The notes under the pieces: generated by a model | Seen by the model: only the letters and a program-made list of their open reading frames with translations | What the model was told of the DNA's origin: nothing | The model's database searches: none | Program-made: the position numbers and the translations under genes | Source: Rhodopseudomonas palustris | Lineage (GTDB): Bacteria; Pseudomonadota; Alphaproteobacteria; Rhizobiales; Xanthobacteraceae | Length of the DNA: 64,000 bases | Assembly (NCBI RefSeq): GCF_013415845.1 | Contig: NZ_CP058907.1 | Span: 3,038,001 to 3,102,000, forward strand | Direction of reading: 5' to 3' | In this document: piece after piece, positions 16,355 to 33,057 of the stretch | How positions within the stretch are numbered: the first letter of the stretch is position 1 | Layout: every line of letters starts with the position of its first letter

Positions 16355-16389
16355 GGTGCAGTCCTCTTTTGGAGTTCAGTTCGTGCGTT

Positions 16390-16549
16390 CTTATTTTTCC
16401 GAGCAACAGCAAGATCATCAGAATGACGACCACAAGGCCGAGACCGCCGCCGAGTATTCAGTGCCGTAGAAGGGCCCGCCCCCTTCGCCGCTGAATCCCC
16501 CCAGCAGCGCGATGGCGAAGATGATGAGAATGATTAATCCGAGTGACAT
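16390..16549 (-). pseudogene. DUF3309 small membrane protein, copy A, frameshifted
   Basis: An ATG at 16549 opens MSLGLIILIIFAIALLGGF followed by a glycine-rich turn ending FYGTEY; the frame then ends early at 16418 after 43 codons. The expected second hydrophobic segment (GGGLGLVVVILMILLLLGKI) is present in the adjacent frame. Compared with the intact copy at 35832-35996 one base is missing right after the TAC codon of FYGTEY. The family consists of about 50-residue peptides with two membrane segments and no known function. Confidence 0.75.
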
Positions 16550-17278: not shown

Positions 17279-17336
17279 AAGGGACTCGGTTTGCTAAGCG
17301 GTGCATTAAGTGCGGAGATTCGACGGCGCATAGCTG

Positions 17337-18320: not shown

Positions 18321-18410
18321 AACGGCAAGTGTGCTCGCTGCCTCGAAATGTTCGGTCGGGGTCGTAAGAATGTTTGGCCCTCAGGGGCCGGAGACTCGCG
18401 ATGCGAATCA

Positions 18411-18663
18411 TAGCTCGGCGAGAGCGCCGCCTTTCTCACTTGAAGGTTGACGCCCTATAGTACCCTATCATATGGGATGCAGAACAGCATCACGCTATGT
18501 AGCGACCTTAGGATCTTGGGCCTCTGGCGTCCGGTCCATGCGCGCAATCAGAATTCATTCCGATTCTCATTTGCGGATAACTCCGCCTGGATAGGCTTGA
18601 GCGGCTATGGTTCACGCGCCGCCTACGCCGCCGATACCCCGCGCTCCCGCGGCCTTTGCCATT
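18411..18663. other. Intergenic region at left side of accessory island
   Basis: This stretch separates module A from the accessory genes. I see no gene, no tRNA and no copy of the TTATGGGGTG repeats found at the right side of the island. A short near-palindromic run (CCCTATCATATGGGA) is present near 18462-18476 but has no known meaning. Confidence 0.3.
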
Positions 18664-19380
18664 TCAGGAGACGACACCAATCATCTGATTTTTGGCCACT
18701 CCCAGTACGGCCTTCTGTTGCCCCGCTTTCATGGCCTCCAAGGCAGTCCTTCCGCCGAGTTCGGCGTGTTCAGTCTTCAGAAACCGATAGACCGACCAAG
18801 GCTGCTTTCCGAGAATTTCGAATAGTTCGGATAAACCAGGCAATGGCATCCCAGACTCAGTGACTTGCCAACTCGGATATCTCACACCGCGAGTCGCCCC
18901 TTGTAGCCCGAGTATCTCTCCCCGCCCTCGCCTGACGTTTACTGTCTCGTGCGAAGCCCCAATGAGAGACCCGAAGGCGCCAGCGGTTAACATGTCCTCG
19001 CCTTTTAGAATTTCGGCGATCTTGATCGTTCCTCGCTCTCGGGCGGATTTCAGCGAAGTTTCCAGCGACGAGACATTTGGTGGAGCAATGGTGACGGGAG
19101 TTCCGATCGCTTTCGCGCTGCCATCTGGCAACACCTCCACAGTGAAGCGAACAGGTTGCCCGACCTTTTTGGCTTTCTTCGCTCCAGCTGAGTACCATTT
19201 AAAAAACTCGAGGCTCACACGCTTCTCGATCGATCTCGGGTTCGTTTTCGCCGAGGTCTTCGGCTTCTTTCCAAGCGCGACAACCCGGACGGCCTCTTTT
19301 CCCCGCCCCGAATTCACGAGCTTCTTGCTGCGCTTCTTTGATGCGCCCGCCCCTCGATTTCGCTTCCTCGTCTGTGCCAC
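18664..19380 (-). CDS. MbcA/Xre-antitoxin-like DNA-binding protein
   Basis: The 238-residue product has a very basic N-terminus (first 50 residues rich in Lys/Arg), a middle part with a helix-turn-helix-like segment (MLTAGAFGSLIGASHETVNVRRGRGEILGLQ, about 128-158) and a C-terminal region like the MbcA/ParS/Xre antitoxin toxin-binding domain (ELFEILGKQPWSVYRFL, LGGRTALEAMKAGQQKAVLGVA). Antitoxins of this type normally pair with a RES or MbcT toxin, but neither neighbour encodes one; downstream is a remnant kinase. It is therefore an orphan antitoxin-like regulator or a domesticated transcription factor. The ATG at 19380 is followed by a coherent basic start. Confidence 0.55.
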   Translation of the reverse strand: MAQTRKRNRGAGASKKRSKKLVNSGRGKEAVRVVALGKKPKTSAKTNPRSIEKRVSLEFFKWYSAGAKKAKKVGQPVRFTVEVLPDGSAKAIGTPVTIAPPNVSSLETSLKSARERGTIKIAEILKGEDMLTAGAFGSLIGASHETVNVRRGRGEILGLQGATRGVRYPSWQVTESGMPLPGLSELFEILGKQPWSVYRFLKTEHAELGGRTALEAMKAGQQKAVLGVAKNQMIGVVS

Positions 19381-19401
19381 GGCGAGCCTCCGCCGGACAG
19401 C

Positions 19402-19979
19402 ATGACGTCAAACGTCAACATTGTCCAATTCATCAAGTCCATCAGGTTGTTCGCCTACAGAGTCTGCCAGTCCGGGAGGACCGACGCAAGATTCAGTCGC
19501 CGAAGCGCCTGGTCGTCATGGCTGTCCGGGAACGTCGCCTGACTGGGCAGACGTTGACCCGAGTGACGCCGAGCGAGAATGCCGACTGTGCATGGGACAT
19601 GGTCCGGGCGCACGTCAGCCGCAAGGCTCACGTCTATGTTGACGAGCACCTGGCCTATGACGAAATCTGCGGCCTTAATTCGCTCACCCGGGTAAACCAT
19701 TCGGAGGCCTACCAGCATGGCTTTGGCGTGTCGACTAACATCATCGAGAGCTTCTTCTCTCGTGTCCGGCGTTCGTATCGCGGGATTCATCATCGGTTCT
19801 CGATGAAGTACCTCGACTGGTACGCCGCCGAACTAGCTTGGCGTGAAGATCGCCGGCGTGTTGGCAATGGAGGACACGTTCTCGATATGCTGAAGCGCAC
19901 CTTGGCCCATCCGACGTCGCGCAATCTCTGCGGGTACTGGCAAGGAAACAAGCCGGACGATCTTGTGTGGACGAGTTAG
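19402..19979 (+). mobile_element. IS1595-family (ISXO2-like) transposase remnant
   Basis: From about 19500 to 19979 the frame encodes the C-terminal two thirds of an ISXO2-like transposase: VYVDEHLAYDE contains the second catalytic aspartate, VNHSEAYQHGFGVSTNIIESFFSRVRR carries the conserved NHSE and the catalytic glutamate, and AAELAWREDRRR is the typical C-terminus. The N-terminal zinc ribbon and the first catalytic aspartate are missing. A short ATG-led segment at 19402 in another frame (MTSNVNIVQFIKS) may be the remnant of the original N-terminus, implying an internal deletion plus frameshift. The element is inactive. Terminal inverted repeats were not found. Confidence 0.75.
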
Positions 19980-20371
19980 GCAGCAACTCTCCAGAGAAAT
20001 GCTCGGCCGTCCCCTTTAATCTGTTCAACCCGATTACGCTTCGCGAGTCCCGACAAGGAGATCGCGACTCTGTTGGCGAGCTCAGGCAATCGCGGGTCAT
20101 CCTCTGGAATGACCTTCTGCAGAGCTACGCGGATCGCGCATTCATGAGAGGAAATTCGCGTTTGCGCCAGACGTAGGGTGTTGAGGATTCGGGCGGAAAG
20201 GTTTTCGTTGGCGAACAATCCGCCGAGGCACTGCCCGCCCTTCCTACCACGTTGAGCGGCAGCCTTCCGAGGCGAATGTCCCGGCTCGTAAATCTGAATA
20301 ACTTTATCGACGGCCGCAATCTGCCTGTCGAGGCCTGCGTCCACGAAGCTGGTCATGCGATCGTTGGCCAC
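19976..20371 (-). CDS. Hypothetical winged-helix-like protein
   Basis: The 131-residue frame has a segment like a family seen near mobile elements in Rhizobiales: an N-terminal helix (LDRQIAAVDKVIQIYEP), a basic linker (RKAAAQRGRKGG) and a C-terminal winged-helix-like part (ARILNTLRLAQTRISSHECAIRVAL, NRVAISLSGLAKRNRVEQ, FLWRVAA). The first 35 codons are antisense to the HEAGH motif of the peptidase-like gene on the other strand, so one of the two genes has probably been extended by rearrangement. Its stop overlaps the end of the IS remnant. Function unknown; it may be a fragment. Confidence 0.45.
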   Translation of the reverse strand: MANDRMTSFVDAGLDRQIAAVDKVIQIYEPGHSPRKAAAQRGRKGGQCLGGLFANENLSARILNTLRLAQTRISSHECAIRVALQKVIPEDDPRLPELANRVAISLSGLAKRNRVEQIKGDGRAFLWRVAA

Positions 20372-20884
20372 TGCCTAGCAAACGAGGCTGGAAGTCGATT
20401 GCTCCAATGTCAGGTGTTCCGGGAAGTGGGAATGGATGGCTCAGGCGGCAGAACGATCATGCGGCAGATCCCGGGGCGAAACCTCGGAAAGGCAGCTTAC
20501 ACGGCTCAAATTACAATCCTCCTTGCTGGCATCGCAGCTGAGGAGATCGTCTTCGGCGATCATGCCGATGGTGCTGGCGGCTCCGACGATTCCGATCTCC
20601 GACAAGCAACACTCATCGCGGCGACGATGGAGGTGTCGCTCGGTCTCGGCAGCAGTCTGATTTACCTCTGCTCCAGACGACCGGATGGCGTTCTGGCGCG
20701 GCTACGAGCCGACCCGATGCTGCGACAGCTTGTCGAGCAGACATTGGATGAGTGCTTTCAGCGAGCAAGAAGCATTATCGCAGAACGCGCAGCCGCCTTC
20801 GAACGACTTGTCCAAATTCTGTTGGTATCAAGCCACCTTCCAGCGGAGATCATCGAACGCGAAATCAATGCACCTCGAGGATAA
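20252..20884 (+). CDS. M41-peptidase-like protein lacking the AAA domain
   Basis: The 210-residue product resembles only the protease domain of FtsH. It has the zinc motif HEAGH (about 31-35, in ACVHEAGHAIVGHCL) and, after GGRTIMRQIPGRN and LLAGIAAEEIVFGD, the segment GGSDDSDLRQATLIAATMEVSLGLG that contains the third zinc ligand aspartate. The AAA+ ATPase and membrane segments of FtsH are absent. Stand-alone M41 domains of this kind occur in rhizobial genomes near mobile elements. The first 25 residues overlap an antisense frame and may not belong to the original gene, so the true start is uncertain; the protease motif itself is complete. Confidence 0.6.
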   Translation: MSGSLPRRMSRLVNLNNFIDGRNLPVEACVHEAGHAIVGHCLANEAGSRLLQCQVFREVGMDGSGGRTIMRQIPGRNLGKAAYTAQITILLAGIAAEEIVFGDHADGAGGSDDSDLRQATLIAATMEVSLGLGSSLIYLCSRRPDGVLARLRADPMLRQLVEQTLDECFQRARSIIAERAAAFERLVQILLVSSHLPAEIIEREINAPRG

Positions 20885-21267
20885 GAACATTCTCCTCAAA
20901 CCGTGAATTGCCCAGTAACTCTACGGAAATCAGTTTTTGAACTCCGATCATGCGGATCTAGATCGATGAATTCAGCACTGCTAAGTGGGCTGCGTTCTTG
21001 CTCTTCAAAGGACTCAATCCTTGAAGGGTCGTCTTTGTCCTACTTTAGAAGACTAACCGATGGCTGTTCTGTCGGTCACAACCGAAGGAGAAAGTTGATG
21101 CAAGCAATCGTCCGCGCATCCTCCTCCTTCACTATGTCCACCCCCCTCCTCATAGCCTCAGCGATATAGCCGTCGAACCACGGCTGAAATCGTTGACGAT
21201 CGCTGGCTCCCTCAGCGGTCGAGAAAATACTCGACGCACATTGCGGCGAGGTGAGGAGTTGCGTGTC
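20885..21267. other. Gene-poor stretch before the transposition operon
   Basis: These 383 bases precede the tnsA-like gene, where the left transposon end would be expected. I found no TTATGGGGTG or CACCCCATAA repeat and no open frame with convincing codon use. A ribosome-binding site (GAGGTGAGGAG, about 21249-21259) at the right border serves the ATG at 21268. Confidence 0.35.
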
Positions 21268-21656
21268 ATGAACTACAACGAGCAATTTCAACATCCGTAC
21301 GATCCGTCTGATCCCAATCGCTCTTCCGCCGGCGGCCGCCGCAACGCGTCGGATCTTCACGTGAGTGACGTCTCCAGGGGCTTGCACATAACGGGCTAAC
21401 CAACCGGCGCAAGCGATCTGGGAACGAAGATGACGTCGAACGTGAGGATGAAAGCCGAAATGTCGTCGGCAATCATCCAGCTGAAGAAGCTCCCCGTCTC
21501 GAAGTTCGGCGCCGGCCGCCCGCATCGCCCGATGAAGAACTCGAATGGGATCTGCCGTGCGCAGAAGATCCCGATGATGACCCCGAGGGGACTCCGCCGT
21601 CCGAAGAGGACGATCTTGAGCCAAGCCTGGCTAAAGCAAAGAAGCGTGGTCGCCGT
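21268..21656 (+). other. Probable 5' part of tnsA-like gene, in two frames
   Basis: An ATG at 21268 with a good ribosome-binding site opens a 43-codon frame (MNYNEQFQHPYDPSDPNRSS...) that stops at 21399. A second frame, open from 21369 without any ATG, GTG or TTG start until 21657, runs straight into the tnsA-like gene and encodes a strongly acidic, protein-like segment (for example GNEDDVEREDESRN, CAEDPDDDPEGTPPSEEDD) and then a basic patch KAKKRGRRVGTRPG. The two frames overlap in 21369-21399, so a -1 shift there would join them into one gene of about 347 codons. No classical slippery heptamer is present, so a point deletion or insertion is the simpler explanation. Confidence 0.55.
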
Positions 21657-22310
21657 GTGGGCACCCGGCCGGGCGCAATTCGCAGCGGGCAGGAAGACCA
21701 CTATGTCGGAGAGACACCGATGATGTGTTTAGAGAACAAGCTCGTCGGGGCGCGCTCCTTGCTCGCTCTCGATTTCCTGACGGTGATCGATGCCTTCACG
21801 CGCAATGTCACCGACGTCATCGACGGACCTCCTCCTCTGTCCTTTGACGTGCGCGGCGAAGCGACGGTGCAGCGGATCGACTACGCGATCTTCCATCAGG
21901 ATGGGCAGCGCGATCTTGTTCTGGTGAGAACCCTCTCCTGGCTGTCGTATCGCGTAAGAAAACTGAGTGTAACGCCCAGAGATTTCATTGATGCGATGTC
22001 GTCGGCAGCCCGCCGCATTGGTTTTGGATTCCGCTTCGTAGCCGAGAACGATATTCGGATTCAGCCGCGCCTTTCGAACGCAAGGATGCTTCGGCGACAC
22101 CTCGTCGGATATGCCGAGAACGTCCAAAAGCTCTTGGCAATCGAAGCATTGGCGCAGCTTCCTGAGGAATCGTCGATCGCCGCCTTGCAGGAGCAAGTTG
22201 GCAGCCGCCTCGATGCATTCGCCCTCGCCCTCCAGCTCGACTGGCTCGGACACATCAGAGTGGATCGTCGCACCGCGTTCAGCCGTCACTCCACATTCGT
22301 GAAGACCTAA
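21657..22310 (+). CDS. tnsA: TnsA-like transposon endonuclease subunit, degenerate active site
   Basis: From a GTG at 21657 the product has 217 residues (an ATG at 21720 is also possible). The layout is that of the TnsA endonuclease fold: an acidic residue (Glu26 in CLENKL), a strand pattern VTDVIDGPPPLSFDVRGEA, Asp75 in RIDYAIF (usually PDF), and the C-terminal signature RFVAENDIRIQPRLSNARMLRRH, which matches the TE-x-IR-x-PRL-N-x-x-L pattern of the family. The catalytic QxK (Gln130/Lys132 of Tn7 TnsA) is replaced by Leu89-Val-Arg91. In Tn7 this subunit cuts the 5' ends, so loss of activity would change transposition from cut-and-paste to replicative. The gene is 26 bases upstream of tnsB. 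Confidence 0.68.
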   Translation: MGTRPGAIRSGQEDHYVGETPMMCLENKLVGARSLLALDFLTVIDAFTRNVTDVIDGPPPLSFDVRGEATVQRIDYAIFHQDGQRDLVLVRTLSWLSYRVRKLSVTPRDFIDAMSSAARRIGFGFRFVAENDIRIQPRLSNARMLRRHLVGYAENVQKLLAIEALAQLPEESSIAALQEQVGSRLDAFALALQLDWLGHIRVDRRTAFSRHSTFVKT

Positions 22311-22336
22311 TTCCACCTGCGTCAGGAGGAATGCAA

Positions 22337-24529
22337 ATGAACCTTGCGCACGTTCCCGTTCAAATCCGTACCGGAGCCACTATCCGCATCGACACTCGCC
22401 GCTATCTCGTCGGTCCGCCTGGAGACCAGGTTCGTGTATTTACCGATAAGGAGTCCGGCACCGAGAAGGCTTTAGCAAACACTGCAATTCTTCACATGAT
22501 GCGTTCGGGCCGGATCACGACCGACGCTGCCTTTCGTGCTCTCCCCCCGGTCGTCCAAGACAATCTGCAGGTGGACTGGGGCGCATTCTCCGATGTCGAA
22601 CGGTTGTCGGCGGAACGAAAGTATCCCTTCGTCAAAGCTATCGATGACCTCCCCGCACCATTTCGAGACAAACGGAAGCATGTCTTGCCTGTCATCGAGC
22701 GCGTCCTCGGTGAAGCAACAGACGATTTGCGTCCGCACAGGGACGTCACCTTCCGTACCGCTCGGGAATGGTACCTGCGCTGGCTGGTAGCTGGGCGGGA
22801 CATTCGCGCTCTGGTCGACAATCACCGAAAGAAGGGCAATCGGACACCTCGTCTGGAGGAATGGCACAAACAGGAGATCATGAAAGGCATCGATGAGGTC
22901 TATCGAAACGAAATCGCTGGTTCGAAAGCCGATGCCCGCGCAGCGGCCGCTCGCCACATTTTGCTTCGCGCGGACCGCGACGGCCTTGGTCTTCCGACGC
23001 TTGGCGCCAAGGAGGTGATCGGAAAGCATTTGGTCTCGCGAATGATCAACAAGATGGAAGTCTACGATCTGACCGTCGCGAGACATGGCAAAAGACAAGC
23101 GGACTTTCTGATGAAAGCGGTTCGAGCGGGACCTGCCTGCAGCATGCCGCTCGAAGAAGCGGAGGTTGATCACACGCCACTTGACCTAATTGTCGTAGAC
23201 AAAAATGGCCTCGTCCTCGGTCGCCCGTGGCTCACGGTCATCATCGATCGTTGGTCACGAATGATCCTTGGCCTGTCACTCAGCTTCACGCCGCCTTCCT
23301 GGGTTAGCGTCATGGAAGCGCTCAGGGTGGCAGTCCAGCCCAAAGAAGGCCTGCTCGCGAAGGTCAGTGAAGCGGCTGGCCGAGATGTCACCTTCCGCTT
23401 TCCTTGGCCGTGCTACGGCCCGATGACGCGGCTATTCTGCGATAATGGCGCTGAGTTTCGCTCGACGTCCATGAGGCAGACCGAACGCGCGTTGAATATG
23501 CAGATCGTCGATCTGCCGAGAGCAGCGGGATGGCTCAAAGGGCGCGTCGAGCGCTGGTTTAGGACACACAACCAGGGCATCATTCACAAGCTGCCGGGCA
23601 CGACCAAGTCGAACCCTCGAGACCGCGGAACCTACAAGTCCGAAAAGCACGCGGTCCTTACTCTCGAAGACGCAAATTGGATCATCGCGAAATGGATCGT
23701 GGATGTCTACCACACGACCAAACACTCCGAGATTGGGGAGCCCCCGCTGGACCGATGGACGAGAGGCATTATCGAGGTTGGAGAGCGCCCTGCTCCGCCT
23801 GAGGAACTCCTTGTTCCGCTGACCGGTCTCGTAATCGACCGCCACCTAAGATCTCCCGGTATTGAGTTCGAAGGCCTGCGATGGAATTCCAATGCCTTCT
23901 CGGGGCTCCGGAATAGGCTTGCCGGAAATAGCGCTGTGACTGTCCGGATCGACCCACTGGATTTAAGGACGGCGTACATTCTCGATCCTACCGCCTTGGA
24001 CGCGAAAGCGAAATGGGTGGAAGGCTATCTTCAAGCAGATGAAGATGTCGCAAAGCTGACACTCTATCAATATCGGGTTCTGAAGAAGGCGCGTCAGAAT
24101 GCAGACGACGAGTGCTTCGATCCGAAAAAGGCTTTAGCTCGGGCGAAATCGAGCCAAGAGATCATCGATCTCATCGACGAACGCAGCCCCCGCAAGAAAT
24201 TGCCGAAAAAAGCGGTCCGCTTCCTGACCGATGGTCGCAATCCTTCCGAGCATCTCCGTGGCGAGCGCCTTTGTTCGGATGAAAGCGAACGGGAGTTGGG
24301 CTCCTACGATCCAGATAGCGCTCTGATGTCACCGCCACCCGACGAGCGGGGCCCCTACCGTGATCGTACTCCGGCCGTCGAAGCCCCACATGCGCAGGCG
24401 CCTCTCCCACCGGAGGTCGATCTTGACGCCTTCGCAGCCAGTGCAGACGCAGAATGCGAGCCGAAGCGCGATGTAACACCTGATCAATCACCGCCGATCT
24501 TAGTTGTGAAGCGGCGCTCTCTTGACTAA
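22337..24529 (+). CDS. tnsB: TnsB/TniA-like DDE transposase
   Basis: The product has 730 residues and belongs to the Mu/Tn7 TnsB family of retroviral-integrase-fold transposases that cut and join the 3' ends. Counting from the ATG six bases upstream (22331), the catalytic triad is Asp280 (EVDHTPLD), Asp371 (LFCDNGAEF) and Glu407 (KGRVERWFRT), a spacing typical of the family. Helix-turn-helix-like DNA-binding regions occupy the first 250 residues, a Mu-C-like beta-barrel follows (about 500-570), and the C-terminal 120 residues are charged and proline-rich, as expected for TnsC contact. The start at 22337 is chosen because AGGAGGA ends directly at 22330, too close to the ATG at 22331. Confidence 0.92.
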   Translation: MNLAHVPVQIRTGATIRIDTRRYLVGPPGDQVRVFTDKESGTEKALANTAILHMMRSGRITTDAAFRALPPVVQDNLQVDWGAFSDVERLSAERKYPFVKAIDDLPAPFRDKRKHVLPVIERVLGEATDDLRPHRDVTFRTAREWYLRWLVAGRDIRALVDNHRKKGNRTPRLEEWHKQEIMKGIDEVYRNEIAGSKADARAAAARHILLRADRDGLGLPTLGAKEVIGKHLVSRMINKMEVYDLTVARHGKRQADFLMKAVRAGPACSMPLEEAEVDHTPLDLIVVDKNGLVLGRPWLTVIIDRWSRMILGLSLSFTPPSWVSVMEALRVAVQPKEGLLAKVSEAAGRDVTFRFPWPCYGPMTRLFCDNGAEFRSTSMRQTERALNMQIVDLPRAAGWLKGRVERWFRTHNQGIIHKLPGTTKSNPRDRGTYKSEKHAVLTLEDANWIIAKWIVDVYHTTKHSEIGEPPLDRWTRGIIEVGERPAPPEELLVPLTGLVIDRHLRSPGIEFEGLRWNSNAFSGLRNRLAGNSAVTVRIDPLDLRTAYILDPTALDAKAKWVEGYLQADEDVAKLTLYQYRVLKKARQNADDECFDPKKALARAKSSQEIIDLIDERSPRKKLPKKAVRFLTDGRNPSEHLRGERLCSDESERELGSYDPDSALMSPPPDERGPYRDRTPAVEAPHAQAPLPPEVDLDAFAASADAECEPKRDVTPDQSPPILVVKRRSLD

Positions 24530-24544
24530 TTGACGGAGTCACAA

Positions 24545-25642
24545 ATGCAGTGGAGTACTCGCTCTGTAGAAGAGCGCCGAAAGCATATCGGCAGTTTTGT
24601 TGCCGTCACGCCGACGATGAAGCGAGCGACGGATGTTTTCCGTCGTTGTTACCGCGAGCACCACGAAGATCCACAGGCGAGCTGCTCGTTCGTTGTCGGC
24701 GAAACCGGTGTCGGGAAGACGACCGCTGCGAACGACTTCATGGAGGAAATCCGCGAAGAATATCGCGGCATGCTCAAAGACGGCATCGACGTCCAGACGA
24801 TCGATCCTAAAACCTATCCGACGAACATGAGCGTGACATTTCAGGAGCCAGGCCGCGGTCTCGTTCGCCCGGTTCTTAAGATTATGGTCAGCAAGAAGAC
24901 CACCTACAAACAATTGTTCGGTGAGACGTTAGCCGCGCTCGGCATGCCCACCAAGCGGGCCACCTTGGCGGAAATGAAGTCGATTCTTCGTCGACAGATC
25001 GAGGGGCAAGGCGTGCGAATGATTATTTTCGACGAATGCCAACACATCGTCGATAGCAGCCAAATTCGCGATCCGTACGAGGCCGCAGACTTTCTGAAGG
25101 AGCTGATGAAAGAGACCCGCGTCCAAATCTGCTGCGTCGGGCTTCACTATGCGACGGACTTCCTGATTGAGAATGGGCAGCTCGAGACCATGAAGAGCGA
25201 GGAACATCATATGAGACCCTTTCCGCTCGATTTAAGCGAAAGGGAGGAATTGTCCATGTTCTTGAGGTCACTGTCGGACGACTTGCCCTTTGATCGCAAG
25301 CCGCAGCTGTTCGCGCCTCCCCTGGCCCTTCGACTTCACCTCGCCTCCGACGGTTACGTGGGTTATATCACTAAGTACGTCTCATTGGCAGCGAAAGACG
25401 CGATCGACCAGAACCTCGATACAGTGACGATTGATCTTCTTGGTGACGCGTATGCTCGCAAGCATAATGTTCCTGACAAGGAGAACCCGTTCCGAGTGAC
25501 GGGAGAGATCGACGAGGACGGCTTTCAGAAGATCAAAGCTGCCCGCAGAAAGATGCTTGAGGAAGAGGCTCGTAAGAGCCGGGCAGCTCGCCGGAAAAAG
25601 GAACGGGAAAAATCACTCAGAAAGGCAGCTGCGGCGGCATGA
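24545..25642 (+). CDS. tnsC: TnsC/TniB-like AAA+ ATPase
   Basis: The 365-residue product is the ATP-dependent regulator of Tn7-like transposition, which links the target selector to the transposase. It has Walker A GETGVGKT and Walker B MIIFDECQHI, about 110 residues apart, then a sensor region (VQICCVGLHYATDFL) and a lysine/arginine-rich C-terminal tail (residues 330-365). The start ATG at 24545 has ACGGAG five to six bases upstream; an in-frame TTG at 24530 directly after the tnsB stop is less likely. It overlaps the first tniQ gene by four bases (GCATGAG), so the operon is translationally coupled. Confidence 0.92.
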   Translation: MQWSTRSVEERRKHIGSFVAVTPTMKRATDVFRRCYREHHEDPQASCSFVVGETGVGKTTAANDFMEEIREEYRGMLKDGIDVQTIDPKTYPTNMSVTFQEPGRGLVRPVLKIMVSKKTTYKQLFGETLAALGMPTKRATLAEMKSILRRQIEGQGVRMIIFDECQHIVDSSQIRDPYEAADFLKELMKETRVQICCVGLHYATDFLIENGQLETMKSEEHHMRPFPLDLSEREELSMFLRSLSDDLPFDRKPQLFAPPLALRLHLASDGYVGYITKYVSLAAKDAIDQNLDTVTIDLLGDAYARKHNVPDKENPFRVTGEIDEDGFQKIKAARRKMLEEEARKSRAARRKKEREKSLRKAAAAA

Positions 25643-26673
25643 GAGTTGACTATTTCCCTCTATTGGTCTCCCCGGGTGAAGACGAACCAGCTCATGCGCT
25701 TCTCCGTCGCCTTGCGAGACGTAACGGCATCGATAATCGTGGTGTGATGACAGAGCTGACAGGCCTGTCCGCCTCGCGACTAAGACGGGGTGACGGTGTC
25801 GAGAAGCTCGCTCACCTCCTTAATTGCAATCCTGATGTCCTCTCGCACTCCACAGCGCAATCGATCGTCAAGGGAATCGTGTCGTTGCGGGGCGAACCAT
25901 TACGTTTGGCTGACGACCTTCTCCAGAAGGAACGAAGAGTCTGCCCCGTTTGCATTTCTGAGGGAGCATATCAGCGGTTTTGGTTTGAGCTTTCGTTCGT
26001 GTCGACTTGCCCTAAGCACCGAGTTGCCCTTGTCGACGCCTGCTCGTGCGGCAAACCACTCTCTTGGGACGACGTAAATATCGAAAAGTGCTCCCATTGC
26101 GAAGATGGCAGCGTATATCGCTTGACGCCTTTGACCCCTCACGAAGACGTATTGATGATGAACCGATGGGCCTTGGGACGGCTCGGTGTCGGAAGAACGG
26201 TCTCGATTCCGATCTTGGACTCAATGCCGTTGTGGATCGCTCTAAACGTCGTGAGCCGCGTCGGCGTCGTTGCGATCAAGGGCTACACCTTCTGGCGCGG
26301 CGTAGATGGCTATGACACACCAGCTCACGAAATTCGAGCCGCAGGATTTCGTATTCTGCAATCAGGGCGGCTCGATCAGCTCCTCGACGAGGTCTACGGT
26401 CAATACCTAGCCGAAAAGACGAAGAACTACGCGGAGACCTATAGAACGATCTATGGCTTCTTCGGAGAGTGGTTCAAGGTTTGGTACAACAGCAAATATT
26501 TCGTTGAAGGCGCCCGCCCGTTCGCCGACATCGTCATCGCAAACGCTGCGCGTAAAAAGGTCGTTGACCTCGAAATGAAGAAGACAACCCGCCATGCCAA
26601 ACGCACCTCTTCCGCTGTGGGTCGTTCCGGCCGAGGACGAGCCTCCGCACGGGATGTTGCTCCGGCTTGCTGA
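25639..26673 (+). CDS. tniQ: TniQ-family target-selection protein, first copy
   Basis: The 344-residue product is a TniQ/TnsD-type protein. After an N-terminal helical segment (EDEPAHALLRRLARRNG) it carries the TniQ zinc-finger set: Cys102 and Cys105 (VCPVC), Cys124 and His127 (TCPKH), Cys135 and Cys137 (CSCGKPLSW), Cys151 and Cys154 (KCSHC). A C-terminal helix-turn-helix-like region follows (YGFFGEWFKVWY). It overlaps the next tniQ by 80 bases, so its last 27 residues may be non-essential read-through. Proteins of this family recognise the target DNA or bridge to it. Confidence 0.88.
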   Translation: MRVDYFPLLVSPGEDEPAHALLRRLARRNGIDNRGVMTELTGLSASRLRRGDGVEKLAHLLNCNPDVLSHSTAQSIVKGIVSLRGEPLRLADDLLQKERRVCPVCISEGAYQRFWFELSFVSTCPKHRVALVDACSCGKPLSWDDVNIEKCSHCEDGSVYRLTPLTPHEDVLMMNRWALGRLGVGRTVSIPILDSMPLWIALNVVSRVGVVAIKGYTFWRGVDGYDTPAHEIRAAGFRILQSGRLDQLLDEVYGQYLAEKTKNYAETYRTIYGFFGEWFKVWYNSKYFVEGARPFADIVIANAARKKVVDLEMKKTTRHAKRTSSAVGRSGRGRASARDVAPAC

Positions 26674-27547
26674 GCGAAATGGCATCAAGACCTACGCTCA
26701 ACTCTCAGCGTTGACCGAGCTGACCATTCGCGATTTGCGAAACGGCATCGGAGTCAACCGCCTCGCCGCAATTTTGCACTGCGACCCTGATCGCCTCCTC
26801 GATTGTACGCCTCTTGTCTCAAGCGCCTCTTTCGCCATTCGAGGAGAGCGTTTCAGCGCAAAGCAGGCGGTGAAGCAGTCCGTGCGTCGCCTCTGTCCCG
26901 ATTGTGTTCGGCAATCTGCTCACCATCGATTCTGGTTCGACCTCGAATTCGTCACCACTTGCCCTGCTCACGGTAGACCTCTCATTCGGACATGTTCTTG
27001 CGGACAGCCTCTTTCCTGGGCGGATGTGAGAATTTCGAAATGTCGGCGGTGCGACAACGGCGACGTCACCACAGTCCCGTGGACACCGGCCAACCCGGAT
27101 ATCATCGAGATGGATCGATGGATTCTGGGGCGGCTCGGTGTTGGCAAGGCAGCTCCGGCGTCATTCCTCGATGGTCTCGATTTGGGTGCGGCGCTCCATT
27201 TGATGCAGAACGTCGGCGTGCTCGACCTCGGAGGTTATCAAACCGCGTGGCCAGAACCAGCGGATTTCGGTGTGTCGATGGCCGAGGCGCGGTCGCGAGG
27301 CTTCAAGGTCCTTAAGCATGACCGACTGAGCGAAATTATGGACCGCGTTTGCGCGGAATTCGTAACCTCAAAGTCAGGTAGAGCGGCCACGATTAAAAAT
27401 GCCTATGGATGGTTCGGCCAATGGCTTCTAGATCTTCAGCCTCAGGATGTGGCTGATCGAATCTGCGAGATGGCCCCCAACAACGCGCCGGGGCAAACGC
27501 GGTGGCCGCTATCCGGAAGAATGGCTGACTTCCGTCAGGCGAGCTAG
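26594..27547 (+). CDS. tniQ: TniQ-family target-selection protein, second copy
   Basis: The 317-residue product is a paralogue of the preceding gene, with the same opening (VVPAEDEPPHGMLLRLAERNGI) and the same zinc ligands: Cys101, Cys104, Cys123, His126, Cys134, Cys136, Cys150 and Cys153. The C-terminal part again contains an aromatic helix (YGWFGQWLLDLQ). Having two divergent TniQ proteins in tandem is known in several Tn7-like groups, where one recognises a chromosomal site and the other serves a second pathway. No CRISPR effector genes or array are present here, so RNA-guided targeting is not supported. The ATG at 26594 lies inside the first tniQ. Confidence 0.88.
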   Translation: MPNAPLPLWVVPAEDEPPHGMLLRLAERNGIKTYAQLSALTELTIRDLRNGIGVNRLAAILHCDPDRLLDCTPLVSSASFAIRGERFSAKQAVKQSVRRLCPDCVRQSAHHRFWFDLEFVTTCPAHGRPLIRTCSCGQPLSWADVRISKCRRCDNGDVTTVPWTPANPDIIEMDRWILGRLGVGKAAPASFLDGLDLGAALHLMQNVGVLDLGGYQTAWPEPADFGVSMAEARSRGFKVLKHDRLSEIMDRVCAEFVTSKSGRAATIKNAYGWFGQWLLDLQPQDVADRICEMAPNNAPGQTRWPLSGRMADFRQAS

Positions 27548-27841
27548 GTCGGGGCTTCGACCATCGGACAGCCGACCTTATCCCGATGACAAGGCTATCT
27601 GTACAGGCGCTTGCTTCGAAAACGTCGGGTCAGGATGGAAACATCTCGTCGAACGCACCTCGAATGAAGAATGTGCATTGAGATTGACTGGTCAGTCTCC
27701 CCTTTGTGAGGCAAGTGCCGCCACGTACTGTTTGCGTGTGCTGCTTTCCCGCAACGTTTGAGTGGCCTCGCAGGATGGTCTATACGGCTTGTTTAGGGCT
27801 GAGGTAGTGTCTGATGACAACGAGAAACGTTGCGAGAATAG

Positions 27842-28954
27842 ATGGAAGCCACTTCAGACGATAAGGTCCTGCCTGGGCACGGACGACTCGCTTGCAATCG
27901 TTGCTTTGGCTCGTCTCAGGTAAGTTGGGGCCAAACGATCCATGAGCCTGGCAACGGTTGGAGTATAGTCAACAACCCGATGTCATGGGGCAGCCGTTCA
28001 CCTAGAATCCTCGTTCTTGGTTTTTCAAAAGGCGGGAACCAGAACGCTAAGATTCTTACCACACCTCACGACGAGGTCGCGTTCAAGGGCGGGCGCACTA
28101 ACCTGTCAACCATTCTCGAAACACTCGGGGTGAAATCGAAATACTGGCCGATCGATGAACTCATCAGTTGCCAGAACGGAAATTTCGCATTCGGATCGCT
28201 TGTCCGCTGTTCGGTGAAAAAACGGAGCGGTGACAAATGGCTGATGTCCGGAAAGGACATTATGTCATCGTGCCTTCAGGACAACGAAATGGGCGACGTG
28301 ATTGAGAATTGTGTCTCCCAGTATATTGGTCAACTACCAGCATCGGTTCGCCTAGTCGTGATGCTCGGCAATGATCTAAAGTACATTGCAGGGTGCTACG
28401 CGGCCATTCGAAAGGTGCGTCCTCATCTGAAGACGATCAACGCTGTCGCGTATGGCGATGACCAGGTGACCTTCATTCACACTGTTCACTTCAAGGCGCA
28501 GGGCTCTCTCGTTCCGAATTGGTCGACGGGCACTCCAGGCAACTCTAAGAAGCTGGAAACAGACCAGCCTCTCAAACGTGAACTCGCCAAGGAAGCTGTT
28601 TCCAAAGCGATTTGGCAGCCGGTCGTGTGGCAGAAGAATAACGGCATCCTCTATCACGCCACCAACAGGGAGAATCGGGAAAGCATCCAAACACACGGAT
28701 TGCTCTTGAACCCAGAGGGCGGAGAAGGAACACCAAGCATCACCGGGGGCTTCTTTTTCTCTCGCAAGAAGCCCCCGGCTTCCGAGCATATCGATGTTTG
28801 GGAGGTGAATGCCGAAGGGTTGCAACTTCAACTGGACGATATCGACCTGCCGCTCGAATTGGACGACACTTGGTGGGTCCATTACGGCCAGCCCGTCATC
28901 GAACCTTGGCGCCTCACTCTGGTGTCCAGCCAACCGCTCGGAGAGCCGACATAG
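27842..28954 (+). CDS. Putative UDG-fold/ART-like fusion protein (cargo)
   Basis: The 370-residue product appears to have two domains. The first (about 15-215) has a CxxC pair (CNRC, 18-21), a strand with the motif ILVLGFSKGGNQ (56-67), FKGGRTNLSTILETLG, GSLVRCSV (118-125) and LVVMLGN (171-177), a layout like the uracil-DNA glycosylase superfamily. The second (about 268-362) starts with ILYHATNRENRESIQTHGLLL and includes GGFFFSRKK, DVWEVNAEGL and WWVHYGQPVIEPWRL, a pattern of the ADP-ribosyltransferase/RNA 2'-phosphotransferase-like fold. Both assignments are by motif pattern only. The gene lies directly after the transposition operon, so it is likely cargo, perhaps acting on foreign nucleic acid. 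Confidence 0.5.
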   Translation: MEATSDDKVLPGHGRLACNRCFGSSQVSWGQTIHEPGNGWSIVNNPMSWGSRSPRILVLGFSKGGNQNAKILTTPHDEVAFKGGRTNLSTILETLGVKSKYWPIDELISCQNGNFAFGSLVRCSVKKRSGDKWLMSGKDIMSSCLQDNEMGDVIENCVSQYIGQLPASVRLVVMLGNDLKYIAGCYAAIRKVRPHLKTINAVAYGDDQVTFIHTVHFKAQGSLVPNWSTGTPGNSKKLETDQPLKRELAKEAVSKAIWQPVVWQKNNGILYHATNRENRESIQTHGLLLNPEGGEGTPSITGGFFFSRKKPPASEHIDVWEVNAEGLQLQLDDIDLPLELDDTWWVHYGQPVIEPWRLTLVSSQPLGEPT

Positions 28955-29026
28955 CACACTAGATCAATGCGACGATGAAACGCGTCAAGCGGTCTATTGC
29001 CTTAAAGTACGCCCGCACGTAACGAA

Positions 29027-29926
29027 TCACACCCAATTCTCGAGCAGCGGGCAGAACTGCGCCTTCTGATGAACTTCTACCTGAATATTGTCGAATGCTA
29101 CCTTGCCATCTGAACTTCGCCTCGATTCGCTAGAGGCAAACCATTGGCCAAATACTAAATAGTCCCGATCGAGATCGAGCTGCGAAAGCAGATGAGGCTG
29201 CGCGCAGATTCTCGGGACAACGTAAATGGCATTATGCTTAGCCTCCTCAGCATAACATTGAAGGTGGCCTTCCTTTCTGATTTTAGGTCGAACCAATAGC
29301 GCGACCGGATGCCAACTCTTGGTATATCTCGCAGATCTAAGGTATCGAACCAATCTTCCAGCGTTTCCTTCGCCAAAATATAGATGGCTCCAATCGATAG
29401 GCGAGGCCCTGTAAGTCACTTCGATCCGACGACGAACCACAGAATCGTCTTCGAGTAATTCCGCTATTCTTGCCAATCCTGCTGCGGTGCGGCAGTAAGG
29501 TGCGAGCATATCCCCAGACCACACCTGCGCGGTTCGCGCTCTATTACTCTCTAAATCGCCTCCGCGAGGGCTATGGGCAAATTCCTTGAAGCGATCGTGA
29601 ATTATATTCAGTCTCAATCGATACTTGCCGTTTGCCAACAGACTCAGGGGTCGACGTGAAACATCGATGTCATTGCCGATCGCAGAGAGATAACGGAGTT
29701 GCGCTTCCAGCGTGTACTTGCAATCGTCGTTGTGATCATTCCCCTTAGCCAGGCGGAGATGATGAGCCACCTTTATCTTGCCGCCACCACGTGAATATGG
29801 CGAGACGTACGATATTGGCGCCCCGCAACCCTCGCACGATAGCGACTGGTTTGCCATCGCTTGCGAGATCGCAACTATCTCTCCCGATGCATTGCGAGCT
29901 CGATACATTTTTAGGCCTTTGGCCAT
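29027..29926 (-). CDS. CoiA-like zinc-finger protein (cargo)
   Basis: The 299-residue product begins with a zinc-ribbon-like module: Cys31 and Cys34 (SCEGCGAPISYV), two histidines at 55-56 (VAHHLR) and Cys69 (DDCKYTLEAQLRYL). This spacing is like the N-terminus of CoiA-like competence and defence-island proteins. The remaining 220 residues have no motif I can name; a helical part is followed by strands (HPVALLVRPKIRKEG, NAIYVVPRI, DYLVFGQWF). It is last in a minus-strand group with the small unknown gene and the PIN-domain gene, and ends 72 bases from the convergent fusion gene. A nuclease or DNA-binding role is a guess. Confidence 0.5.
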   Translation of the reverse strand: MAKGLKMYRARNASGEIVAISQAMANQSLSCEGCGAPISYVSPYSRGGGKIKVAHHLRLAKGNDHNDDCKYTLEAQLRYLSAIGNDIDVSRRPLSLLANGKYRLRLNIIHDRFKEFAHSPRGGDLESNRARTAQVWSGDMLAPYCRTAAGLARIAELLEDDSVVRRRIEVTYRASPIDWSHLYFGEGNAGRLVRYLRSARYTKSWHPVALLVRPKIRKEGHLQCYAEEAKHNAIYVVPRICAQPHLLSQLDLDRDYLVFGQWFASSESRRSSDGKVAFDNIQVEVHQKAQFCPLLENWV

Positions 29927-29962
29927 GGCTGCCCTCCATGGCCTGTACCTATGCGACGACTT

Positions 29963-30319
29963 TCAAAATTTTGCTAAATTCACCGCGACCGAATATTCTT
30001 CAACAATTCTGCGTCGAAAGTGGATTCTTATCGTCGCCTTTTGCAACTGCTTCAATTTAGCGAAAAGACCACTTGCCTGGCGACCAAGATACGCTCGGGA
30101 GCACTCATCTTCCAACAAAAGTGTAACTGCCGTTTCATCGGCGAGCTTGCACAACTCCACCTGAAGAACTCGCGGAGGCGGCGGTTCAGCAATAAGCAGA
30201 TCAAAACCGGCGCTGCCCGAGTCTGTGAAGCCCATGTAGCCTTTGAAGAAGATTGGCTGCTTATTCCAGCGCGAGGAGCGGCAACTTGTTTTCAGCGATT
30301 GACGATCAGCAATTTCCAT
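29963..30319 (-). CDS. Small unknown protein (cargo)
   Basis: From the ATG at 30319 the product has 118 residues; an ATG at 30439 in the same frame would give 158. I prefer 30319 because AGGATG precedes it at a suitable distance and the sequence from MEIADRQSLKTS onward looks protein-like. The middle has a strand-rich segment (GSAGFDLLIAEPPPPRVLQVELCKLADETAVTLLLED) and then basic helices. I recognise no family. Its stop is 36 bases from the start of the CoiA-like gene and it follows the PIN-domain gene, so the three are probably co-transcribed. Confidence 0.45.
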   Translation of the reverse strand: MEIADRQSLKTSCRSSRWNKQPIFFKGYMGFTDSGSAGFDLLIAEPPPPRVLQVELCKLADETAVTLLLEDECSRAYLGRQASGLFAKLKQLQKATIRIHFRRRIVEEYSVAVNLAKF

Positions 30320-30491
30320 TTCGAAACATCCTGACGACCTTGAAATATGATCGCCACGGACTTTGCATGACGCAAATTCAGGAGGAAGGACGGCGACAAC
30401 GTCTCGTTGTCCTGGAAAGCGTTTGGTTTCAATCATCAAAGGGAGCTGGCGTTCGGAACGCGTGTCCGTACATCAGGCGATTTCGGGAGAA

Positions 30492-32135
30492 TTAGTTTCC
30501 GCACTCGATCATCGCCATAGCCAAATCAAACACTTCAATGAACACGGTATTCCGCTCTACCACCACCTTCAGCTGCTGCGGCGTTGTGAGATTTTCGGCA
30601 TGCACACTGCATTCTACGACGCCTCTGACGTCACCGTGTCCTTCGAAGAGCACTTCGAACTCGATAAAATGATCGCTCGTCTGGTGTCGCCACAAATCAC
30701 AGGTTTGCGCACCGCTTCGAACTAGCTCTGACTTCGGCCAAGATGAATAGTAAAATTCTTCAGGATTGTGGGGCTCCCGTCGTAGGTATGGAGGAAGCGA
30801 GAACTGCGAGATAGGGGTGATCGTAGGCGCTACGATGTTGGCTAATGAAGCTCGCATAGCTGCATCAGCTGCGGTGATACCCAGCATTGAGTCTTGAAAC
30901 CGCTTGAGCGCACCGACATCGACCGCGCCAGACGTCGCCAGCCTTTTGGCTGCATCCAATGCATGTTGATATTGTTTCGGAATATCAACGCCACGCAGTG
31001 AAGACAATGGTACGCGTCCCACTATTTCGAGATTTGAGGCGGGCAAAGGTTCGCATGTGACCGTTTCTCGAAACGCAGGTGGTTGAGGAGGAGATGGCAG
31101 CCGTGTCACAGGGCTTGGGGATGATCTGACAGTTGAGCCTTTATCCTCGTCTTCTACGTCGTCGTTCTTGCCTCCTCGCATCAACGCCAACGGCCCCGAA
31201 GTCGCGAATTCGACTCTGACCCGCGATGCGGGTCGTGATCCTTCGTTTGACATCGTCCACTGAAGGACAGCAGGCGGTGCGTCCTCGTCCCGTCCGAAGT
31301 GGAAGTTTGTCAGAATTTCTCGGCAGCTCTTTATCCACTCTGGATAGCGGACGTCGCGATAGGTGGCGATCTCTTCCTCTGTCGGAGCCGAGTATTCGAC
31401 GGTTTTGGTCTCTCGGATTCCAACAGTAGTAACGCTCGGAGGGGGCGTAAAATCGGTACGGATGGGGTGTTTGAGGAGCAGCAACTCGATGAGTTGGGCA
31501 ACTTCTTCTTCCTTTAAGGGCTTGGCGACCTTGCCGATGACCTTCACAAAGCGATTAGCATCAGCCGTCTCGCAGCGAATGGCAATTTTAGGTTCGAGGT
31601 CGCGATAGGCCTCCAGATCCTTTTTCAGCTCACGGATCTGCTTCGCTTCGGTCGTCTCCGCTGGGGGACGGCGCCAGCTCTGATCAATCATCAGAAACGG
31701 GATGCCCAAATCGAGTGCCATGCCCGCCGGACCGCCGTCATCTGTGAATAGTTTCACCTCGTATCCAGAGGCCTCTTTGTTCAATTCCGAGACAATCCCG
31801 ATGAGCCTTTCGTCAGCCTTCGCGTAATCGAGATGATCTTTGTAGGCCGGATCTGGCAGGACACTCGTCATCCTGCGAAGAACAACGTGAGGTCCAGAAG
31901 TCCGGATTGAAGCGTCTTGGACGCCTTGCGTAAGCATGCTCCGGAAGCGTCCGAAAATGTCGAGCGCACGGTCGCGCGTGCGTCCACTGCCCTTCTTGTG
32001 CTTGTCGATCTCGTCCAAGACAGGCTTCGTCAGAAGCAGCACGATCGGGTCGAAGCCAAGTTCCTCCCACGGGAGCTGTTCGAGTGTTCTGAACTCGAAG
32101 AACAGATTGGTGTCGGGGACGAGATGCAGTTCCAT
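30492..32135 (-). CDS. PIN-domain protein (cargo)
   Basis: The 547-residue product begins with a PIN-type nuclease domain (1-155). Its acidic residues are Asp8 (LVPDTNLFFEF), Glu42/Asp44 (VLDEIDKHKKG), Asp108 (KADERLIGI) and Asp132/Asp133 (LFTDDGGPAG), as in the large PIN families that cleave RNA. The middle is charged, and the C-terminal half contains an Ig-like segment (MSNEGSRPASRVRVEFATSGPLALM) and two long proline-rich linkers. The full architecture is unfamiliar to me. It is the outermost gene on the right side of the transposon, 186 bases from the first TTATGGGGTG repeat, and heads the minus-strand cargo group. Confidence 0.7.
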   Translation of the reverse strand: MELHLVPDTNLFFEFRTLEQLPWEELGFDPIVLLLTKPVLDEIDKHKKGSGRTRDRALDIFGRFRSMLTQGVQDASIRTSGPHVVLRRMTSVLPDPAYKDHLDYAKADERLIGIVSELNKEASGYEVKLFTDDGGPAGMALDLGIPFLMIDQSWRRPPAETTEAKQIRELKKDLEAYRDLEPKIAIRCETADANRFVKVIGKVAKPLKEEEVAQLIELLLLKHPIRTDFTPPPSVTTVGIRETKTVEYSAPTEEEIATYRDVRYPEWIKSCREILTNFHFGRDEDAPPAVLQWTMSNEGSRPASRVRVEFATSGPLALMRGGKNDDVEDEDKGSTVRSSPSPVTRLPSPPQPPAFRETVTCEPLPASNLEIVGRVPLSSLRGVDIPKQYQHALDAAKRLATSGAVDVGALKRFQDSMLGITAADAAMRASLANIVAPTITPISQFSLPPYLRREPHNPEEFYYSSWPKSELVRSGAQTCDLWRHQTSDHFIEFEVLFEGHGDVRGVVECSVHAENLTTPQQLKVVVERNTVFIEVFDLAMAMIECGN

Positions 32136-32320
32136 GACCTACGCTGCGCAACCTGGGATAGACAGGTCAGCCTACACTCGATTGCAGGATTCGCACCGGG
32201 TCGAAAGCGTTTCAGCACCACAGGTGGTGTAGGCCGCTTCGGCAGCGGTAAAGTTGCTTCCGCGAAGGGTGTTTCGGTACCGCACTCCCGGCTAGGCAAA
32301 GCTCGAAAAACGCGACGCCT

Positions 32321-32440
32321 TTATGGGGTGAAAACGTCTGGCCACGACGGTCTTATGGGGTGCGCCGCGTTTTCTTATGGGGTGCGAGCTGGACTGAATT
32401 CATTGAAAAATTCGGATTTTTGGGTGGCCTTTATGTGGGG
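32321..32440 (+). repeat. Transposon right-end repeats (TTATGGGGTG)
   Basis: The ten-base sequence TTATGGGGTG occurs exactly at 32321-32330, 32353-32362 and 32375-32384, all in the same orientation; a weaker match, TTATGTGGGG, is at 32431-32440. The spacings are 32, 22 and 56 bases. Tn7-like elements carry several TnsB-binding repeats of this sort at the right end, commonly about 22 bases apart. The three flanking bases are also pyrimidine-rich (CCT, TCC or TTC before TTATG). The element probably ends a little to the right; a possible terminal ACA is at 32444-32446, but no partner end or target duplication was identified. Confidence 0.65.
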
Positions 32441-33057
32441 AGCAACACTCGGTTTGCCCAGTGCAAGGTCGGCATTCCCCCGCGACGATCATGGCGATGC
32501 ACCAAGATGGACGCGCTTCTTGGCTCGCTGAGCTGCGGTCACCACGCTCAGCTCGGACAGCGCCGTGACAGCGGTCGGATATGCGAAGCATCGCGACTGA
32601 CGTTGTCCGCCGCCGTGGGCGGTCATCCACCACGCGCAGCCGCGAGCACTCTGCGAAAGGTCGGCTCCAGATCGGCCAATGCAGCCCCTCTTCACGAGCC
32701 GGTTTCGAACGACGAGTTGGGTTTGGCGCGATGCAGCCATCACTCGTTCGGTGGCCGAGGGTTGCTGTCTCCGTCGTTGTGTCGTCGGTATTCTTCAGCC
32801 CCCGCTGGAAGCGATCCTGGCCGGTCGGCTGTCCGGATGCACAATGTCGGCGCCGCGACCGCGTCGTCGGCCGCGGTCGATGCGGCCAGCATGAGATCAG
32901 ACATTGTCGGTTTCAATTCGGACGCGAGGAGACAGGAAGTAACATTGTTTGTTGCCGGCTCTCTGACAACGGCGCATTCATCCGTCCGAAGGCTGCACGC
33001 CGAAGATATCGCCACGAGACCGCGAAGTAATTCTGAATCTCGATCACAGGTCGGCCC
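32441..33057. other. Gene-poor stretch between transposon end and module B
   Basis: In these 617 bases I find open frames on both strands but none with convincing protein-like composition or a recognisable domain. The stretch probably contains the right junction of the transposon and the promoter of the VIT gene. It may also contain decayed chromosomal sequence. Confidence 0.35.

Follow-up and report, generated by a model that had tools for sequence, protein, structure and literature searches.

The 64,000-nucleotide stretch of Rhodopseudomonas palustris DNA analysed here (the window; contig NZ_CP058907.1, positions 3,038,001 to 3,102,000, from a host genome of one 5.32 Mb contig) carries most of a complete Tn7-like transposon of 33,481 bp, referred to as W, which is inserted beside dif, a site present in most bacterial chromosomes and at which linked chromosomes are separated. 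Comparison of insertion sites establishes, on sequence grounds, that W and its closest relatives, a small hyphomicrobial clade, home to dif. We further infer that host XerCD acts as the target selector in trans and is contacted by a pair of short TniQ proteins, and we give the reading as a whole a probability of roughly 0.6. Coordinates are window positions, and negative values lie to the left of the window.

An earlier annotation made from the letters alone, the sequence-only reading, had placed the element at 21268 to 32446. Its right-hand limit was one base short of the terminal ACA at 32447, and its left-hand limit was wrong, as the true end lies 1,033 bp outside the window. The element therefore runs from -1033 to 32447, about three times the size first noted, the first 20 kb or so of the window are likewise cargo, and a left edge in the IS1595-bearing interval at 18.4-21.3 kb was ruled out. 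The outer terminus at -1033 (G000:C1:3036967) reads TGTTGCGCACCCCATAA and is followed 43 bp inside by a second repeat, as seen when the sequence was extended leftwards. We take this terminus, on the tnsA side and beside the target, to be the right end in Tn7 usage, and what had been called the right end to be the left. The exact terminal 17-mer occurs twice in 104 kb, at the two W ends (mean 0.02 and maximum 1 in 100 first-order Markov sequences), and a perfect 5-bp duplication, CTCGG, lies at both outer sides. The ends and the transposition genes are arranged as follows.

1..32447, + strand: part of W within the window, with TGT/ACA ends and the CTCGG duplication on both sides
19338..19979, + strand: IS1595-type transposase open reading frame (ORF), in the stretch where relatives hold a second TnsA-like gene and an AAA domain
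20252..20884, + strand: truncated AAA-M41 (FtsH-like) remnant, the C-terminal M41 part of a gene that is longer in relatives, upstream of tnsA
21657..22310, + strand: TnsA-like protein, catalytic E and K positions lost; frame open upstream of 21657
22331..24529, + strand: TnsB DDE transposase (PADLOC TnsB, E 2e-38)
24530..25642, + strand: TnsC/TniB AAA+ regulator (E 2e-17)
25639..26673, + strand: TniQ1, 344 amino acids (aa), core only (E 1e-12)
26594..27547, + strand: TniQ2, 317 aa, core only (E 2e-13)
32321..32447, + strand: tniQ-side end, with four TnsB-type repeats (32321, 32353, 32375, 32431), terminal ACA at 32447 and CTCGG at 32448-32452

The end repeats noted in the sequence-only reading were confirmed: exact copies of TTATGGGGTG lie at 32321, 32353 and 32375, with the variant TTATGTGGGG at 32431; at one mismatch or fewer the window holds 6 matches against 1.18 expected, a number reached in 0 of 100 shuffles. 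Repeat spacing from the end is the same in a close relative (G199, the source of the closest TnsB, 93% identical and from the same genus) and partly so in G026 and G089. The W-G199 alignment stops at 32447, right after ...TTATGTGGGGAGCAACA, and the same end geometry, with the terminal ACA 17 nt from the TTATG-type repeat, is seen in G199, G106 and G026, and with one mismatch in G089 and G188. W thus has the TGT/ACA ends, multiple TnsB-type repeats and 5-bp duplication of a Tn7-like element, together with a DDE transposase TnsB, an AAA+ TnsC and TniQ/TnsD proteins in a single operon. That operon, in which TnsA-like, TnsB, TnsC/TniB and a pair of TniQ genes share one strand and overlap slightly, had been proposed from the letters and was borne out by family and profile matches. 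In TnsB, D280, D371 and E407, which we take to be the DDE residues, are invariant in an alignment of 30 sequences. TnsB was found in 20, TnsC in 19, TniQ in 18, TnsA in 15 and AAA-M41 in 11 of 20 further loci. The description as Tn7-like, with a pair of TniQs and without a recognised CRISPR part, also held: window 1-33000 has no close direct repeats of at least 22 bp, and hence no CRISPR array, Rfam gave no match, and a PADLOC scan covering a subset of ORFs detected no such part.

To the left of W, and of the elements in G199 and in Tardiphaga G026 (TnsB 57% identical to that of W), the outer flanks share TATTCCATAATATACCTTATGCGAA 37-41 nt before the element, and the DNA after it differs. Read on the opposite strand, the target 28-mer of W is identical at 28/28 bases to the dif site published for Bradyrhizobium japonicum USDA 110 (PMC2731167). 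The same site had been considered as an operator of the neighbouring dctP / acyl-CoA synthetase operon; this was dropped because the sequence matches the published dif table, and the operon is merely a neighbour of dif. Of 296 family genomes, 189 contain the dif core at two mismatches or fewer; each of the 16 members of the genus has it a single time, and a reversed-pattern control gave 0. GC skew changes sign weakly at the site, from +0.007 to -0.019 in W and from +0.016 to -0.024 in G199; in G026, where few windows were available, it goes from +0.011 to -0.006.

A search for the site together with an element end recovered 6 of 391 family genomes (control 0): W, G199, G026, G067, G107 and G189. 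Five of these six copies have the 28-mer without substitution and G199 has one. With the XerC arm assigned from the published order C-spacer-D (PMC10132070), the distance from its outer end to the TGT of the element is 36 bp in W, 35 in G199, 39 in G026, 37 in G067, 36 in G107 and 38 in G189, and the duplications start 30-34 bp from the arm. Since side and orientation are built into the search pattern, which accepts any distance of 28-50 bp, the independent evidence from G067, G107 and G189 is restricted to the narrow distance (36-38 bp) and the duplications. A preference for the terminus or for replication termination, TnsE-like and without recognition of dif, is another reading of the location, and TnsE is thought to use replication features (PMC10293859); a ruler of 35-39 bp in six copies, with 36 bp in a Devosia locus (L071) described below, makes this very unlikely (tnsE was not searched by profile).

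The elements in G199 (31,040 bp) and G026 (31,163 bp) are flanked by the perfect duplications GATGT and CTTAA. W and G199 differ both in duplication and in distance from dif, which argues that they are independent insertions. The sequence-only reading had proposed an empty site with a 5-base duplication as a check on mobility, and in Tardiphaga this was obtained: the flanks of the G026 element, once joined, align with another Tardiphaga genome, G066, over 1518 of 1526 bp (93% identity), and G066 shows the empty site base by base, with a single CTTAA. For W the duplication was found, but no empty site. In G170, 329 bp separate the dif core from the start of the methyltransferase-gene DNA (window 37383 onwards); in the window genome about 4.9 kb of other accessory DNA (32453-37383) lies between W and that gene as well, which is why the empty site is shown with G026 and G066. 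That proximity to dif is a coincidence of an ordinary Tn7-like element, or reflects shared descent, could be entertained for W and G199 as close relatives in one genus; their differing duplications and distances, the clean empty site in a second genus and the distant relative in Devosia leave it very little credit.

DNA to the right of dif varies among Tardiphaga and Rhodopseudomonas genomes (L135, L136, L137 and others), and decayed end-like sequences were seen there by eye in G125, G108, G156 and L107, so that the region looks like an insertion hot spot. In the 32453-37383 interval the VIT1, ferric-reductase and Spy-like (by eye) genes resemble copies within W (10237-10932, 14466-16550), and the interval is possibly an older insertion at the dif site.

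Smaller units use the same position. G067 carries a cassette of 3,575 bp (duplication TCGGT; L160/L161) and G189 one of 7,584 bp (ATTGC; L164/L165), each with the same ends and a perfect duplication, beside dif. Nine element proteins (tns, TniQ and others) gave no tblastn match in the 22.6-40 kb around these cassettes, while a control sequence in the same database was matched, and the cassettes are evidently non-autonomous and tns-less. A transporter-type ORF was noted by eye in that of G067. From G107 the dif-side end alone was found. The G199 element is inserted at the ruler distance directly beside an older G067-type end, and its GATGT duplication includes the TGT of that end. Across the order, TnsB matches at E <= 1e-60 occur in 4 of 397 genomes (those of W and G026 included), and the site-plus-end pattern in 2 of 397, both among the known copies; no relatives were found in viral contigs. 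Integration of an island at dif by Xer recombination, as in IMEX elements, would also account for a position beside dif. The TGT/ACA ends, the 5-bp duplications and the missing second dif refute it; at up to 7 substitutions, each genome has one dif-like 28-mer in 78-104 kb and none at the other junction (W, G199, G026), where an IMEX has dif at both, and we assign this possibility next to no weight.

The presence of two TniQ proteins had been taken to indicate two targeting routes. Both are short and core-only, and the autonomous copies of this dual-short-TniQ sub-clade with both ends mapped are all at one site, dif (3 of 3), so that claim was not sustained. TniQ1 and TniQ2 of W are 41% identical, and the pairs in the three close dif elements measure 344+317, 315+318 and 358+340 aa. 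In the sisters next to them (G106, G089, L056) there is instead a single TniQ of 527-535 aa beside tnsC, with an extension of about 220 aa; the two proteins tested gave weak HTH_17 matches under the cut-off (E 0.007 and 0.07). Where the tnsA-side end of such single-long-TniQ elements could be mapped (G089, L070, L068), it lies at the 3' end of a gene: 13 bp after nrdJ in G089 (PF02867 and PF08471), and 15 bp after an HNH endonuclease gene in L070 (PF01844) and L068 (gene 60% identical). No dif-like site was found near these three ends (best 15-16 mismatches within 200 bp). The genomes of G106, G089 and G188 have dif and no such element end beside it. The flanks of the G089 sister element, TCCAC and CCACA, differ, and no duplication was found there. 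In the G106 locus (L035) a second outer end, TGTTGTTCCCCTCATAA, was observed at oriented coordinate 19232, 2.3 kb past the end of the first element, and a further TniQ ORF of 616 aa (30524-32374) points to a neighbouring element.

W thus lacks a TniQ with the long C-terminal DNA-binding extension of TnsD-type homing; both of its TniQs are without the roughly 220 aa that the nearest single TniQs carry, and dif is normally occupied by XerCD. These points count against direct binding of dif DNA by TniQ1 and/or TniQ2, in the manner of TnsD on glmS and with Xer uninvolved, which we consider rather unlikely and still a serious competitor. It would draw on the precedent of TnsD, which homes Tn7 by direct DNA binding to an attTn7 site at +23 to +58, a similar distance (PMC2918618), on the zinc finger in the TniQ core (PMC10293859) and on the strong conservation of dif; a protein that reads DNA could also account for insertions on both sides, given that the two arms of dif resemble each other in inverted orientation.

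Selection through XerCD is favoured by the content of the elements and by what is published on TniQ partners. No tyrosine recombinase (PF00589) or serine resolvase match was found inside the W, G199 and G026 elements, a search that a very diverged TnsF could escape. PF00589 genes number three in the W genome (two strong) and three in the G199 genome, without a PF00239 match; the strong host genes are presumably XerC and XerD. TnsC connects target selector and transposase. Short TniQs act together with a partner, which in Tn6022 is TnsF, an inactivated tyrosine recombinase that binds TniQ. On the simplest reading, then, the target would be selected by host XerCD bound to dif, with the TniQ pair serving as adaptor. 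In such a pathway the tyrosine recombinases XerC and XerD bound at dif would mark the target, the TniQ pair would dock on them and couple TnsC to dif, TnsC would nucleate on the adjoining 30-34 bp, and TnsB would insert the element there, leaving dif itself intact. Insertion sequences (IS) of the IS1202 family insert 5 bp from the XerC site of dif, and contact with XerC was suggested by the authors (PMC10132070); the greater distance seen here would fit a TniQ-TnsC assembly.

The TnsA-like proteins bear on how insertion might proceed. That of W matches NCBIfam TnsA_like at E 1e-5, under the family cut-off, and a profile of 15 TnsA proteins retrieves PseTnsAB from PDB at E 9e-12; from this match and from work on Tn7 we take the catalytic positions to be those that follow. 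In an alignment of 15 TnsA proteins, the glutamate motif SLLE has become SLLA or SMLA, and the EVK motif LVR, LVW, IVR, MVH or MVR, in 7 of 7 close relatives. Both residues are kept in 7 of 8 distant relatives, the remaining one (L060) having alanine for the glutamate and retaining the lysine; a possible left end in L060 was not used. W therefore lacks the intact TnsA of cut-and-paste Tn7, a feature that some relatives also lack. Upstream of AAA-M41, relatives hold a second TnsA-like gene (214 aa in 5 of 6 loci, 230 aa in G106), whose profile aligns to TnsA with an hhalign probability of 89.5 and E 2e-6. All six proteins have alanine at the glutamate position and a motif without lysine; the three tested against Pfam gave no match, and BLAST detected no counterpart in W. 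Transposition without TnsA is expected to be replicative (PMC11406308). With the catalytic glutamate and lysine absent from both TnsA-like subunits, insertion may proceed, which we put forward with less confidence, by a Shapiro intermediate and a cointegrate. Where donor and target copies each adjoin a dif, host XerCD could resolve the cointegrate; this is offered as a proposal only.

The AAA-M41 (FtsH-like) gene upstream of tnsA is conserved in 11 of 20 related loci and travels with the transposase. It is possibly a transpososome remodeller or an IetA-like defence gene. The available text of PMC8649781 holds no passage on FtsH, protease, Argonaute, Alphaproteobacteria, Rhizobiales or nonautonomous elements.

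A second lineage may have arrived at the same target. L071, from a Devosia genome bin, encodes a TnsB 34% identical to that of W and TniQ ORFs of 410 and 412 aa, and it is the only one of 22 loci (L055-L076) with a good dif-like site. Its outer end, TGTCTTCCACCCTATAAG (L071 5894-5958), whose repeat has one mismatch, is separated by 36 bp from a dif-like 28-mer, on the XerD side. Compared with the Agrobacterium dif of PMC2731167, that 28-mer has 4 substitutions in 28 bases, and shuffled copies of the locus contain 0.02 such sites on average. We read L071 as an apparent independent use of dif by another dual-TniQ lineage. A dif-like match in L076 (5 substitutions, 7.4 kb from tnsA) was taken as chance. 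A fuller scheme, which we regard as speculative and on the whole doubtful, would have the TniQ heteropair of an element that brings no selector itself read the XerC-XerD heterodimer on dif, with one TniQ per Xer subunit and either side used according to clade; transposition would be replicative because both TnsA-like subunits would be catalytically dead, XerCD/dif would resolve the cointegrates, and tns-less cassettes would be homed in trans.

Several observations weigh against selection by XerCD through the TniQ pair, or limit the homing data on which it builds. Both ends are mapped in three autonomous copies only, and a fourth close dual-TniQ relative, L055 (contig G072:C25, 11.5 kb), comes from a genome without such an end at dif; its second TniQ is cut by the contig end. 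Distant relatives with one short TniQ (278 aa in L065 and in the Bosea plasmid locus L076, 355 aa in L073, 377 aa in L066) occupy locations that this reading does not account for, and L074 has two long TniQs (521+640 aa). In L071 the far end and duplication were not found within the locus (its flank TTGAG does not recur behind an ACA, and the outer end has no second repeat), and its position on the XerD side means that contact with XerC alone is not the rule. Direct recognition of DNA by a TniQ, discussed above, would dispense with Xer, and 5-bp duplications fit cut-and-paste equally as well as resolved cointegrates. Finally, neither the second TnsA-like gene nor the AAA half of AAA-M41 survives in W, which may for that reason be inactive or immobile.

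The remaining genes of W are cargo, which varies between the elements and in W comprises metabolic genes and uncharacterised nucleic-acid proteins.

1..1914, - strand: multihaem cytochrome c-like protein; the gene runs to -557
2078..15743, no strand assigned: metabolic cargo (MetA-pathway protein, sulfatase, DUF1254/1214, DUF2092, AraC-type regulator, VIT1 family, cytochrome b561, amino-acid permease, ferric reductase)
9098..10096, + strand: AraC-type regulator, within the metabolic cargo
18664..19380, - strand: Xre/MbcA/ParS-C antitoxin-like protein (E 2e-4, just under cut-off)
27842..28954, + strand: uracil-DNA-glycosylase (UDG)-fold protein with variable C-terminal domain, the "fusion gene" of the sequence-only reading, assigned from structure and homologue comparison
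29027..29926, - strand: cargo ORF, CoiA-like by eye only
29963..30439, - strand: cargo ORF, no family match
30492..32135, - strand: PIN-domain protein next to the end (PF13638, E 6e-5), 76% identical in the G199 element

The left-hand cargo also includes a histidine-kinase-type ATPase. The antitoxin-like gene has no obvious toxin partner, and a similarly annotated gene lies upstream of tnsA on the Bosea plasmid pB32-2. Among the labels given from the letters, the PIN domain and the fusion gene were upheld, and the CoiA-like label found no Pfam, NCBIfam or PADLOC match. The N-terminus of the fusion protein has a UDG fold (best PDB match 2d3y, E 2.5e-5, TM-score 0.47 by target length), and its C-terminal part varies, because the alignment with several homologues comparable in length covers no more than about two thirds of it. 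An ADP-ribosyltransferase-like motif in that part was seen by eye only, where model confidence is low, and is not claimed. The family (window 27842-28954, P0122-P0196) has conserved cysteines and interchangeable C-terminal domains, with PF01420 (Methylase_S) in P0175.

The suggestion that the element may carry a defence module found no support in W itself, where the four right-hand cargo ORFs gave 0 PADLOC matches (three rescanned: 0; the left-hand metabolic ORFs lay outside the scan). It remains plausible for W because relatives carry such genes: a Gabija pair in the G026 element (L059:2274-5554; GajA E 2e-71, GajB E 2e-51 in PADLOC) and a prokaryotic Argonaute in that of G199 (L033:6002-7555; PADLOC pAgo_I, E 1e-215). 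Defence cargo is thus a property of the clade.

The clade would offer a natural large-cargo element that homes to dif without breaking a gene. Many Tn7-like loci have a TniQ too short for target choice and no visible partner, and selectors in trans were guessed at by Faure et al. 2023 (PMC10293859), who name no example of a locus borrowing its selector in trans in the accessible parts of that paper. W and its relatives would make this a concrete and testable case, in which the host site is single, known and 28 bp long, the ruler is fixed and XerCD is a known candidate machine, and, if the reading is true, an evolutionary parallel for TnsF, a selector derived from a tyrosine recombinase.

Compared with known systems, the element shares with the dual-tniQ Tn7-like transposons (998 loci; PMC10293859) TnsABC and TniQ, TGT/ACA ends, multiple TnsB sites, a 5-bp duplication and site-specific homing. 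Here, however, both TniQs are short, where one usually exceeds 400 aa; the target is dif and not the 3' end of a gene; TnsA is without catalytic residues; and second TnsA-like and AAA-M41 genes lie upstream in close relatives of W. With Tn6022 and TnsF it would have in common a short TniQ with a tyrosine-recombinase protein as selector, demonstrated there and proposed here, whereas no tyrosine recombinase match lies within the element and the target is dif, not comM. The type V-K CRISPR-associated transposons and other TnsA-less elements are alike in the replicative transposition expected if TnsA is inactive; here TnsA genes are present and degenerate, and no Cas12k was detected among the ORFs scanned. 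The IS1202 "dif site hunters" (PMC10132070) have a TnsB-like transposase, TGT/ACA ends, a 5-bp duplication, the XerC side and a fixed orientation in common with the clade, and are single-gene IS of 1.5 kb without TnsC or TniQ that insert 5 bp from the XerC site, in contrast to elements of 31-33 kb that lie 35-39 bp away. In the accessible parts of the open-licence PMC literature, where the IS1202 insertion sequences were found, no Tn7-like element at dif was. Dual TniQ, short TniQ and dif-targeting IS are each already known; what appears to be new is a Tn7-like element that homes to dif.

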